Shown: positions 38,418 to 41,479 of the stretch, piece by piece
How positions within the stretch are numbered: position 1 is the first letter of the stretch
Layout of the letters: every line of letters starts with the position of its first letter
Source: Chryseobacterium sp. OSA05B
GTDB lineage: Bacteria > Bacteroidota > Bacteroidia > Flavobacteriales > Weeksellaceae
Assembly: GCF_019970065.1 (NCBI RefSeq)
Contig: NZ_JAHXYH010000001.1
Span: 1-64,000 of the forward strand
DNA length: 64,000 nucleotides
Direction of reading: 5' to 3'
Made by a program: the position numbers and the translations under genes
Notes under the pieces: model-generated
The model's input: only the letters and a program-made list of their open reading frames with translations
Told to the model about the DNA's origin: nothing
Databases searched by the model: none

Positions 38418-40403
38418 TTAAAAAAGACTCTCATCCACAAAATTCGGCAACGTCACCTTCAAATTAGGCTCAGCTTCCATCGCTCTTTTAATCGCGAAAA
38501 CAGCACCTTCATTTCTTGCCCAGCTTCTTCTGGAAATTCCGTTGTTGACGTCCCAGAAAAGCATAGATTTCAGTCTTCTGTCTGCCTCTGCACTTCCGTC
38601 CAGCAGCATTCCGAAACCTCCGTTGATCACTTCGCCCCAGCCTACTCCGCCACCGTTATGGATAGATACCCACGTAGCACCACGGAAACTGTCGCCGATT
38701 ACGTTGTGAATCGCCATATCTGCGGTAAACCTTGAACCATCATAGATATTGGAAGTCTCTCTGTAAGGCGAATCTGTCCCGGAAACATCGTGATGATCTC
38801 TTCCCAAAACAACAGGCCCAATTTCCCCGTTTTTAATGGCATTATTGAAAGCTTCAGCGATCTTCATTCTTCCTTCTGCATCTGCATAAAGTATTCTCGC
38901 CTGAGAACCTACAACCAGTTTATTTTCCTGAGCGCCTTTGATCCACTGGATATTGTCTTTCATCTGCTGCTGAATCTCTTCCGGAGAATTTTTCACCATC
39001 TCTTCCAGTACAGCACATGCAATATTGTCGGTTTTCTGCAGATCTTCCGGTTTTCCACTTGCACATACCCAACGGAAAGGCCCGAAACCATAATCGAAGC
39101 ACATAGGTCCCATAATATCCTGAACATAACTAGGATATTTAAATTCTCTTCCTAAAGTCGGATTTTCAGCCATTACATCAGCTCCGGCTCTTGAAGCTTC
39201 CAGTAAAAAGGCATTTCCGTAGTCAAAGAAATAGGTTCCTTTCTGTGTATGTTTATTGATGGCTGCAGCATGTCTTCTTAAGGTTTCCTGAACTTTTTCT
39301 TTAAATAATTCAGGTTCTTCGGCCATCATTCTGTTTGATTCCTCAAAACTCTGTCCGGCAGGATAATAACCACCCGCCCAAGGATTGTGAAGCGATGTCT
39401 GGTCAGATCCGATATCTATTGTTAAGTTTTTCTCATCAAATTTCTCCCAAACCTCAACAATATTTCCAAGATAAGCCAGAGAAACAGTTTCTTTGTTTTC
39501 CTGAGCTTTCAGGATTCTTTCTACCAATTCATCCAGGTTTTCGTGAATTTCGTTCACCCATTTCTGATCGTGACGGATCTTGGTGATCTTAGGATTCACT
39601 TCAGCACATACCGTGATACAGCCTGCGATATTTCCTGCTTTTGGCTGTGCACCGCTCATTCCTCCCAATCCGGAAGTTACAAAAAGGCCTCCTTTCGGTT
39701 CTTTTTTGATTTTTCTGAAAGCATTCAGAACAGTGATCGTAGTTCCATGAACAATTCCCTGCGGACCAATGTACATATAACTTCCCGCTGTCATCTGCCC
39801 ATATTGAGTAACGCCTAAGGCATTGAATTTCTCCCAATCATCCGGCTTGGAATAATTAGGAATCATCATTCCGTTGGTTACCACTACTCTGGGTGCATCT
39901 TTATGCGATGGGAAAAGACCCATCGGGTGACCTGAATACATGGTTAAAGTCTGCTCATCCGTCATTTCAGACAGATACTTCATGGTCAGAAGATATTGTG
40001 CCCAGTTTGAAAATACAGCTCCGTTTCCTCCGTACGTAATCAGTTCGTGAGGATGCTGTGCCACTGCATAATCCAGATTATTCTGGATCATCAGCATAAT
40101 GGCTTTTGCCTGCTCAGATTTTCCGGGATAATCCGCAATTGATCTTGCCTTCATTTCATAATCCGGACGGAAACGATACATATAAATTCTCCCGTATTTT
40201 TCCAGTTCTTCTCTGAATTCGGGTAAAAGCTCCGCATGAAACTGAGGTTCGAAATAACGTAAAGCATTCTTCAGAGCAAGCTTTTTCTCTTCCTCTCCTA
40301 AAATTTCTTTACGCTTCGGTGCATGATTGATATTGGTTTCGTATGGTTTAGGTTGTGGCAGCTGATTCGGGATCCCCTGCTGTATCTGTTCTTGAAATGT
40401 CAT
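38418..40403 (-). CDS. hutU: Urocanate hydratase
   Basis: A 661-residue urocanase that converts urocanate to imidazolone propionate in histidine breakdown, with tightly bound NAD. Motifs are ELITYGGNGAVFSNWAQY, TSGLGGMSGAQPKA (NAD binding) and FGPFRWVCASG with the catalytic Cys. Length fits the longer urocanase group of Bacteroidota. No other hut genes are in this window. A 111-bp copy of its 3' end lies downstream at 37865-37975. Confidence 0.96.
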   Translation of the reverse strand: MTFQEQIQQGIPNQLPQPKPYETNINHAPKRKEILGEEEKKLALKNALRYFEPQFHAELLPEFREELEKYGRIYMYRFRPDYEMKARSIADYPGKSEQAKAIMLMIQNNLDYAVAQHPHELITYGGNGAVFSNWAQYLLTMKYLSEMTDEQTLTMYSGHPMGLFPSHKDAPRVVVTNGMMIPNYSKPDDWEKFNALGVTQYGQMTAGSYMYIGPQGIVHGTTITVLNAFRKIKKEPKGGLFVTSGLGGMSGAQPKAGNIAGCITVCAEVNPKITKIRHDQKWVNEIHENLDELVERILKAQENKETVSLAYLGNIVEVWEKFDEKNLTIDIGSDQTSLHNPWAGGYYPAGQSFEESNRMMAEEPELFKEKVQETLRRHAAAINKHTQKGTYFFDYGNAFLLEASRAGADVMAENPTLGREFKYPSYVQDIMGPMCFDYGFGPFRWVCASGKPEDLQKTDNIACAVLEEMVKNSPEEIQQQMKDNIQWIKGAQENKLVVGSQARILYADAEGRMKIAEAFNNAIKNGEIGPVVLGRDHHDVSGTDSPYRETSNIYDGSRFTADMAIHNVIGDSFRGATWVSIHNGGGVGWGEVINGGFGMLLDGSAEADRRLKSMLFWDVNNGISRRSWARNEGAVFAIKRAMEAEPNLKVTLPNFVDESLF

Positions 40404-40560: not shown

Positions 40561-40620
40561 ATTCCCCTCCTCCGGAGGGGTGGATTGCAAAATTTATAAA
40601 ATTTTGGAAGACGGGGTGGT
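40561..40620. repeat. Left terminal inverted repeat of the DUF559 element
   Basis: The sequence runs ATTCCCCTCCTCCGGAGGGG, TGGATT, an AT-rich insert, then GGAAGACGGGGTGGT. The parts recur in the same order and inverted at 41046-41099. CCCCTCCTCCGGAGGGG is itself a palindrome. Confidence 0.85.
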
Positions 40621-41031
40621 CCCAAAATACTGAATAATAAAACATTCCAGATCTTTCATCACTACATATATATTATTCCTTACGTCAAAATCAGTAGTCC
40701 TGAAAACCAAAAGTCCCAAAGACTCAAGATATTCCTGTCTGATTCCATCGTAAACTTGTTTTTCATCATGGCTGGAACCATCAATTTCAACAATTAGCCC
40801 TAAAGTTTTTACATAGAAGTCAACAATATAATTCCCGATGATTCGTTGTCTGTCAAAATCAATGTGGTGAAATGCTCCCGCCCTCACCTTTTTCCAGAAA
40901 ATAACCTCACTTAAAATACGTGCTTTCCGTTTTTCTTTTAGCAATACTGTTAAATGGGGATTAAAGGGTAGATTTTCTACAAAATTCCTTTGAATGGGAA
41001 TACCTTGAATATGGGTAAGGATTTCTTTCAT
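40594..41031 (-). CDS. DUF559 (Vsr-like) endonuclease domain protein
   Basis: A 145-residue protein with a restriction-endonuclease-like (PD-(D/E)xK, Vsr-type) domain. RARILSEVIFWKKVR leads into IIGNYIVDFYVKTLGLIVEIDGSSH, giving candidate metal ligands Asp71, Glu82 and Asp84 plus His88; later VFRTTDFDV closes the fold. DUF559 proteins are predicted nucleases of unclear role. The last ~9 codons (TTPSSKIL and stop) are read from the left inverted repeat. The start ATG lies 15 nt from the right repeat. Confidence 0.85.
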   Translation of the reverse strand: MKEILTHIQGIPIQRNFVENLPFNPHLTVLLKEKRKARILSEVIFWKKVRAGAFHHIDFDRQRIIGNYIVDFYVKTLGLIVEIDGSSHDEKQVYDGIRQEYLESLGLLVFRTTDFDVRNNIYVVMKDLECFIIQYFGTTPSSKIL

Positions 41032-41045
41032 TGTTTATGTTTTTT

Positions 41046-41099
41046 TAACCACCCCGTCTTCTCCTTTCAGTCAAATCCACTCCTCCAAAAGAGGGGAAT
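41046..41099. repeat. Right terminal inverted repeat of the DUF559 element
   Basis: Read on the minus strand it is ATTCCCCTCTTTTGGAGGAG, TGGATTTG, a short insert, then AAGACGGGGTGGT, matching the left repeat part by part. The promoter of the nuclease gene must lie within or beside it. Confidence 0.85.
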
Positions 41100-41188: not shown

Positions 41189-41479
41189 TTAAGTTAAAAC
41201 GTCATCATTTTCTTCTTCGTGATCGTCCGCATTATCACTGCGGCTCCAGTAATTGTTTTCTTCATCTTCGGATCCTATTTCTTCCATATCATCGTCATCT
41301 TCAGTTCCCGGAATATCAAGTCCTTTATCTAGTTTATCATTGTCCTCTTCATTCAGGATTGGGTTTCCGTCGCCGTCCAGCGGAATATGTTTTTCTTTAT
41401 TGAATATATCTTCACTGGGATTGTAATCCATCTCTTCGAGTTTTCTGTTCTGTTCGTTTGTATTGTCTTCTGGTATCAT
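41189..41479 (-). CDS. Small acidic protein, unknown function
   Basis: A 96-residue, strongly acidic protein (runs of D and E such as TEDDDDMEEIGSEDEEN) with no signal peptide. It is probably largely disordered. Similar acidic proteins are common in Chryseobacterium but have no assigned function. It has its own terminator and is transcribed away from the DUF559 element direction only by spacing, on the same strand. Confidence 0.6.
   Translation of the reverse strand: MIPEDNTNEQNRKLEEMDYNPSEDIFNKEKHIPLDGDGNPILNEEDNDKLDKGLDIPGTEDDDDMEEIGSEDEENNYWSRSDNADDHEEENDDVLT

Follow-up and report, generated by a model that had tools for sequence, protein, structure and literature searches.

A single nuclease gene enclosed by inverted repeats is located at 40561–41099 of the window, that is, the whole stretch of 64,000 nt that was analysed. 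The gene encodes 145 amino acids plus a stop codon, lies at 40594–41031 on the minus strand and belongs to the Vsr-like nucleases of the DUF559 family (PF04480; Pfam E = 2.9e-23). No other DUF559 match at E ≤ 0.001 was found in its own 5.25-Mb genome. One terminal repeat lies on the 3′ side of the gene (40561–40620, plus strand), and its inverted, partly decayed partner lies on the 5′ side (41046–41099, minus strand). The left repeat starts with ATT, followed by hairpin 1 (CCCCTCC-TCC-GGAGGGG, 40564–40580), TGG, hairpin 2 (40584–40610) and the inward-pointing end ACGGGGTGGT (40611–40620).

A mechanical inverted-repeat search recovered outer arms of 26 nt with 85% identity (40561–40586/41074–41099) and inner arms of 36 nt with 75% identity (40607–40642/41026–41061). 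The inner 11-mer GACGGGGTGGT was exact at both inner repeat ends (40610–40620, plus; 41048–41058, minus), and three matches with at most one mismatch were found in the window versus 0.22 expected. These results confirmed the inverted terminal repeats around one Vsr-like nuclease gene that had been noticed in a preliminary description of the locus. The description had also stated that the end of the gene is read from the left repeat and that the right repeat touches the promoter region; the final eight codons (TTPSSKIL) and the stop indeed occupy 40594–40620 within the left repeat, and ACGGGGTGGT of the right repeat stops 16 nt before the ATG. The CCCCTCC/GGAGGGG palindrome ascribed to the repeats was present in the left copy, the single-stranded DNA fold of which (−13.6 kcal/mol) was better than that of shuffled sequences (z = −4.65), whereas the right copy has GGAGGAG in place of GGAGGGG and folded no better than its own shuffles (z = +0.70).

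Two conserved neighbours border the element. Downstream lies a gene that we take to be hutU (urocanate hydratase; 38418–40403, minus strand), which is the conserved neighbour at the home site. On the other side, a 96-aa acidic protein (41189–41479, minus strand) was found in 116 of the 118 genomes of the genus sample and served as the anchor for empty sites. This sample included the own genome and consisted mostly of draft assemblies, with one genome per species.

Protein fold and conservation

The gene is under purifying selection, with a median dN/dS of 0.11 among 329 pairs of 51 genus genes. Residues E42, D58, R61, E82, D84 and H88 were invariant in 51/51 proteins and D71 was conserved in 50/51; E42, E82, D84, H88 and D71 are presumably catalytic. 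The predicted model (mean pLDDT 76.6) matches a Vsr-like nuclease fold: NGO0050 (3hrl) was retrieved with Z 12.1, Vsr (1cw0) with Z 9.1, and the catalytic domain of the homing endonuclease I-Bth0305I (3r3p), which we assume to be of the Vsr-like/EDxHD class, with Z 11.8 over 94 residues. Low-ranking fold matches (ribosomal proteins, GTPases) were disregarded.

PADLOC yielded nothing better than weak matches (E 0.0048 and 0.0068). Of three PHROGs matches, one, at 6.7e-8, concerned a family of unknown function and the other two were weaker. One match was obtained in 50,697 phage records, and the 22 matches in plasmid records were all below 60% identity.

Repeat family in the genus and the phylum

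The preliminary description had predicted gene-less copies of the repeat, and it would have regarded repeats confined to this locus as a sign of an ordinary gene. At least five gene-less copies were found elsewhere in the own genome as pattern matches, and the genus pattern GGGGTGGN10-35ACGGGGTGGT yielded 1086 matches across 100/118 genomes, compared with one match in all genomes for the reversed-pattern control. The repeat unit can be written as ATTCCCCTCC-loop-GGAGGGGTG(G)-hairpin 2-ACGGGGTGGT, with two hairpins per end. The exact hairpin-1 form was detected in 37 of 395 phylum genomes, representing 19 genera, and the reversed control gave none among the matches listed. We know of no explanation for these palindromes in genomes of this genus.

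Hairpin 2 is variable in sequence. The 124 distinct inserts from the set of loci used for this test had a mean minimum free energy of −5.46 kcal/mol versus −1.03 kcal/mol for mononucleotide shuffles, and 64% of them lay below the 5th percentile of the pooled shuffles. The stems included GCCC/GGGC, CAAAAATTC/GAATTTTTG and TCCGTGTGC/GCACACGGA, and the loops were mostly 3 or 4 nt long as judged by eye. The fold is kept while the sequence changes, which from these comparisons marks hairpin 2 as conserved in structure. The repeat units also held more open frames than shuffled sequences (4.42 versus 3.23 of 6), and all six frames were open in 55/216 units versus 7% of shuffles.

Some gene-less repeats were nested in a larger intergenic module that starts with AACCACAAAAG and, in locus L004 of the own genome, ends with CTTTTGTGGTT; the empty counterpart of L004 in genome G027 (L217) contained only short ends of this module. 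The module is possibly a second, nested small repeat element.

Association of the gene with the repeats

Sixty more loci of the genus with the short type of DUF559 (about 65–90 bits) were fetched, giving 61 loci with the window copy; this set leaves aside the copies with the weakest matches or the most damage, as well as a small number of other loci. An inward-pointing ACGGGGTGGT end, sought within 400 nt before the protein match and within 300 nt after the first stop, was present with no more than one mismatch on both sides in 55/61 loci, window copy included, and was exact in 48. In many of the genus loci, one repeat overlaps the 3′ end of the reading frame and the other stops 10–21 nt before the start codon. 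Among the named loci (the best 80 of 340 relatives, of which 79 were testable), GGGGTGG upstream together with CCACCCC downstream was found in 62/79 and at least one end in 79/79, and displaced control windows of the same loci had ends in 0/72. Some named records are apparently also among the 61 genus loci, and the two sets are therefore not independent.

The number of repeats followed the presence of the gene. The median was 11 repeats per genome in the 68 genomes with a short DUF559 gene versus 1.5 in the 50 without (p = 1.5e-8), a statistic that ignores phylogeny and rests on a hand-assigned split in which broken copies were counted and matches below about 32 bits were not. Sixteen of the 18 repeat-free genomes were without short DUF559, and 34 genus genomes had repeats and no short DUF559 match. 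In the phylum sample, a relative of the nuclease (A1) was counted by hand in 23/37 genomes with the repeat pattern versus 134/358 without (p = 0.0045), and 14 of these 37 had no A1 relative at 1e-10. These sequences tie the gene to the repeats throughout the genus and, through repeats of other sequence, in much of the sampled phylum.

A separate case is genome G277, which had 18 matches to the repeat pattern and no close A1 relative at 1e-10. Its repeat was rather uniform, with TCAGTTTACTGA as hairpin 2 among the matches listed, and another enzyme or a lost gene might account for it.

A search for hairpins beside DUF559 domains in general accepted perfect hairpins no more than 250 nt from DUF559, with a left arm of 6 nt or longer that consists only of pyrimidines and contains 4 C or more. 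Hairpins occurred on both sides in 18 of the 23 phylum loci tested (three of 26 were too short), compared with both sides in 1/46 and either side in 4/46 of the displaced controls. The corresponding figures were 15/20 for in-frame or fused loci (control both 0/40, either 2/40), five of which are shared with the phylum set, and 53/80 for the named loci, which are the best 80 of 340 relatives (control both 0/144, either 1/144). Eight hand-picked plasmid loci of other phyla, out of the 22 matches, had hairpins on both sides in 3/8 and on at least one side in 7/8 (control either 2/16); in one of them, Pseudanabaena L375, DUF559 lies in frame upstream of an Eco57I-type methylase domain. Among ten high-scoring DUF559 loci of the genus, both-side hairpins were found in only two, namely, the MetH and LeuS inserts.

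Home site, inversion and loss

The same locus with repeats and gene at an identical position in all species had been named as an argument for an ordinary fixed gene, and the home site agrees with this in part. hutU was present within the fetched stretch of about 5 kb in 55/61 genus loci and within 830 nt in 49/61. With three extra loci added, 52 loci lay within 830 nt of hutU (31 co-directed and 21 opposed), and six further loci, extra loci included, lay 1.5–4.6 kb from it. Because hutU adjoins most loci, one ancestral site with mostly vertical inheritance and inversions is indicated. When 40 loci were placed on a tree, flipped genes fell into one clade plus the copy of G081, which requires at least two orientation changes. 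Replacement of the element in G081, the gene of which is flipped and diverged, was considered and rejected: the gene groups with its own clade, and thus an independent inversion of a decaying, frame-broken copy suffices. Six loci of the short DUF559 type (L088, L093, L094, L110, L114 and L121) had no hutU in the fetched stretch and are the best candidates for real relocation events.

Gene-less home sites were read in several genomes. A bare palindrome of 23–26 nt was found in G103, G032, G037 and G091, and a degenerate palindrome in G050 and G042; no palindrome was found at the gene-less home sites of G083 and G095. G065 retained a shortened remnant between the repeats. In G105 (L145), diverged repeat ends between the 96-aa gene and hutU surround a different small gene, which is lipoprotein-like as judged by eye.

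The exact bare palindrome ATTCCCCTCC..GGAGGGGAAT occurred in only 7/118 genomes, always at or beside element sites: four lay beside hutU without the gene, two beside gene copies (G014, G055) and one in G001. At the site of the G001 palindrome, G059 carries a gene-less inverted pair with orthologous flanks (86% over 1077 nt and 91% over 711 nt). We first read the bare palindrome as an insertion target; this reading was dropped, since palindromes that are so rare and so confined to element sites are more simply read as deletion scars, with the direction of change being the presumed one.

Close inward-facing pairs of ends were found at 21 places in 18/118 genomes, with none in the control. For thirteen of these, a gene copy lay no more than about 1 kb away, and these pairs may belong to gene units instead of being independent elements; eight places in seven genomes had no gene copy that near. 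Tandem pairs were present in G047 and G075, and the two read in G047 were complete tandem pairs. The earlier expectation of relatives with clean empty sites was borne out in so far as orthologous gene-less sites exist. It failed for solo copies: comparisons of three of them with 16, 12 and 18 relatives gave no clean empty site, the regions being too rearranged or showing the coding side, and some relatives share the solo repeats. No target-site duplication was noticed by eye in the pair and empty-site comparison or at the home-site scars.

The element and its flanks differed in similarity. Between G000 and G012, all five 100-nt windows fully inside the element were 94–98% identical, whereas the alignable flanking windows were 78–93% identical, with one at 97%, and the window at the left boundary was 68% identical. 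In the comparison with G071, the element was the less similar part (78–87%, compared with 83–96% for most flanking windows). Given these contrasts in identity, the element was probably exchanged apart from its surroundings.

In-frame relatives within host genes

The strongest finding came from relatives outside the window. As read from their frames and flanks, related units sit in frame inside unrelated genes, including MetH, LeuS, PheT, HsdR and type ISP restriction-modification genes. Twenty loci were picked for a DUF559 domain within an open frame of 423–1383 aa (17 listed in the phylum search and three from the genus). By Pfam or solved homologues, the hosts were PheT (L353), a type ISP protein (L354), HsdR (L355, L357, L361), HemF with an N-terminal fusion (L365), MetH (L370, L367) and LeuS (L371). 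Further hosts, which were named by eye and which we take to be such, were HsdR (L359, L362, L363), HemF (L360, L366, L369), LeuS (L368, L372), QueG (L358) and HemD (L364); the set of 20 also includes L356.

The bracketing hairpin repeats of the in-frame DUF559 domains are translated as linkers. By alignment, the LeuS insert lies between residues 236 and 237 of 1h3n; MetH has 160 residues where 9ssp has 18, and PheT has 197 where 3pco has 10. Within the genus, the MetH stretch was uninterrupted in 116/118 genomes. The insert is carried by G117, in which the junctions replace a linker that is variable among the seven relatives compared, and the MetH frame of G063 was broken in an assembly that is 75% complete.

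In seven aligned loci, the DUF559 domain interrupts a type ISP-like restriction-modification protein; the host was checked by Pfam in two of them, L352 and L354, the latter representing the place of L168. The insertion occupied one position in six loci and another in the seventh (L168), and the loci thus provide mutual empty sites. The upstream repeat is translated, for example, as NSPPLEGCPKGGV and the downstream repeat as PPRPMGTPPMEGN or TTPPVGHPSKGGE, and shorter repeat peptides such as TTPSFGHPSTGGE were found in other loops of some of these loci. Several in-frame repeat peptides at different loops were also observed in the type ISP genes L335, L343 and L352 and in HsdR of L171. From these sequences, it looks as if restriction-modification genes were preferred or tolerant hosts.

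Discussion

With moderate confidence, we describe the locus as a resident copy of a REPtron-like element that is small and probably selfish and that consists of a DUF559 nuclease gene of the Vsr-like (EDxHD) type and inverted double-hairpin repeats. Points that count against this description are the age and mostly vertical descent of the home site, the repeat-bearing genomes with no short DUF559 match in the genus or no A1 relative in the phylum, the lack by eye of a target-site duplication and of clean empty sites for solo copies, the eight of ten high-scoring genus loci that have no such hairpins, and the decay of the right end in the window. A REPtron is a RAYT/TnpA-REP gene between inverted REP palindromes, with REPs, REPINs and BIMEs dispersed in the genome, according to the cited passages (PMC2817692, PMC3116915, PMC6006769). 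As in those accounts, there is a resident gene here, usually one per genome, with an inverted palindromic repeat on either side, and copies of the repeat are scattered over the genome, both as gene-less singlets and as inverted doublets; palindrome changes are compensatory, the gene tree mostly follows the species and tandem doublets lie beside the gene. Unlike the REPtron of those sources, with one imperfect hairpin and GT[AG]G, the present element has two hairpins per end (GGAGGGGTG-hairpin-(AC)GGGGTGG), far fewer copies per genome and in-frame copies within conserved genes. Its enzyme is a nuclease of the DUF559 Vsr-like fold and not an HUH Y1 transposase. The element works like a REPtron, and its enzyme is what sets it outside that group.

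The unit is not a freely jumping transposon, as argued by the gene near hutU, its inversion in some lineages and the palindrome left at some gene-less sites. It resembles a REPtron with a Vsr-like or homing-type nuclease in place of the HUH transposase. The suggestion that a nuclease takes the place of a transposase in a minimal selfish element is retained as the best explanation of the whole pattern and is strengthened by the in-frame insertions into unrelated genes elsewhere; free hopping was not seen, and the home site is mostly vertical. Unlike an insertion sequence or a classical transposon, no known transposase lies between the terminal inverted repeats: DUF559 was the sole family over the cut-off, both in the window protein (Pfam) and in a scan of 30 relatives. 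Unlike an intein, the nuclease is not surrounded by a protein-splicing family, none being found at E ≤ 1e-5 in a scan of 9 + 2 proteins that carry DUF559 in frame.

HUH strand transfer is not expected of a Vsr-like nuclease, and the model we infer is therefore one in which the DNA is broken or nicked at the hairpins and then mended by the host. The nuclease may recognise extruded hairpins or GGGGTGG-flanked ends and would make breaks or nicks at the hairpin ends. Cellular repair would then copy to new places either the element, through gene conversion or homing, or its ends. The element could be flipped when its inverted repeats recombine, and recombination or slippage between two directly repeated palindromes could delete it and leave one palindrome; inversion and precise loss would thus require nothing beyond recombination or slippage between repeats. 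Since many repeat frames are open, insertions into coding sequences would be tolerated as extra loops.

Four other explanations were weighed against the REPtron-like element. The nuclease may be a homing endonuclease only, which cuts the bare-palindrome allele and is copied by repair from the homologous chromosome without transposition. Its predicted fold and invariant catalytic-type residues resemble those of Vsr-like/EDxHD homing endonucleases such as I-Bth0305I, the exchange of the element apart from its flanks in G000 versus G012 is shared with homing endonucleases, and some empty sites have an intact palindrome, the inner side of which is interrupted by the element. Homing endonucleases differ in that no intron or intein was seen here and in that the present element has its own terminal repeats and gene-less copies. 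The solo and paired repeats at many other sites and the several different host genes are left unexplained by homing alone, and the bare palindromes are rare and look like deletion scars rather than waiting targets, so that this explanation is rather unlikely.

We regard as improbable an ordinary fixed DNA-repair nuclease of the Vsr-like type, the flanks of which merely gathered unrelated intergenic palindromes. The mostly vertical home site, the low dN/dS with invariant active-site-type residues and the fold match to Vsr, the mismatch-repair endonuclease that nicks at T:G mismatches and works with a cytosine methyltransferase, are in keeping with such a role, and Caulobacter VsrA, likewise a DUF559/Vsr-like nuclease, has been proposed to act in mismatch repair (PMC12907096). 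This proposed role sets VsrA apart from the present element, and the term 'inverted repeat' is absent from the main text of that paper. Chance gathering does not account for both ends in 62/79 of the named loci, which are the best 80 of 340 relatives, versus 0/72 displaced controls, for repeats that enter the end of the reading frame and stop shortly before the start codon in many genus loci, or for hairpin-bracketed in-frame copies within unrelated genes.

More improbable still is movement of the repeats by a Y1/RAYT (HUH) transposase from another locus, with DUF559 as passive cargo. A Y1_Tnp match was present in 104/118 genus genomes, and Bacteroidetes tnpA genes are described as flanked by atypical secondary structures in a passage of PMC6006769. 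Repeats were about as numerous without Y1 (mean 8.3 in the 14 genomes without a match versus 9.3 in the 104 with one, p = 0.70), and G116 has 28 repeats and the nuclease but no Y1 match. Action of Y1/RAYT in trans as the main explanation was rejected, as repeat number follows DUF559 instead of Y1. As an observation on its own, the close relative G012 had 15 Y1_Tnp matches, including groups of identical score, and an ordinary repeat number (10); it appears to carry many near-identical copies of one Y1 transposase family.

A role of the repeats as signals in RNA or transcription (terminators, attenuators) that flank the gene by chance is very improbable despite their strong stem-loops, as the two window repeats contained no terminator-like site, no Rfam family reached its gathering score at the locus, and copies are translated in frame within proteins.

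Among known palindromic elements, the Rickettsia palindromic elements (RPE), described in a portion of PMC10969869 as about 150 bp long with a conserved peptide, offer a parallel to the relatives of the element elsewhere, not to the window copy. As with the RPE of that description, palindromic repeats lie in frame in unrelated protein genes and are tolerated as an extra peptide; unlike them, a nuclease gene belongs to the repeats here. A text search of the open-access literature, with subscription papers and preprints outside its scope, found no description of an association of DUF559 with inverted repeats or of in-frame DUF559 insertion, and the association was not described among the matches listed from the open-access literature on palindromic repeats, RAYT and Vsr-like proteins.

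The pattern of sequences suggests a selfish genetic element of a kind that has drawn little notice. As a broader and tentative generalisation, for which the chances seem nearly balanced, DUF559 nucleases might be the resident enzymes of widespread unnamed mobile elements with paired polypyrimidine/polypurine hairpin ends. Repair set off by the nuclease would spread such elements, gene-less hairpin repeats would be their persistent form, and the many open frames of their ends would let them settle in frame inside conserved genes, as a splicing-free counterpart of inteins in Bacteroidota and at a few plasmid loci of Cyanobacteria, Alphaproteobacteria and Deinococcus.

DUF559 is still a "domain of unknown function" in Pfam, and its link to palindromes gives the domain a testable role. 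The natural in-frame nuclease insertions in MetH, LeuS and PheT provide a model for mobile DNA within conserved genes. The finding also suggests that a REP-like repeat economy is possible around a non-HUH nuclease, and if the nuclease were shown to move the repeats, the element would be more than a REPtron variant.
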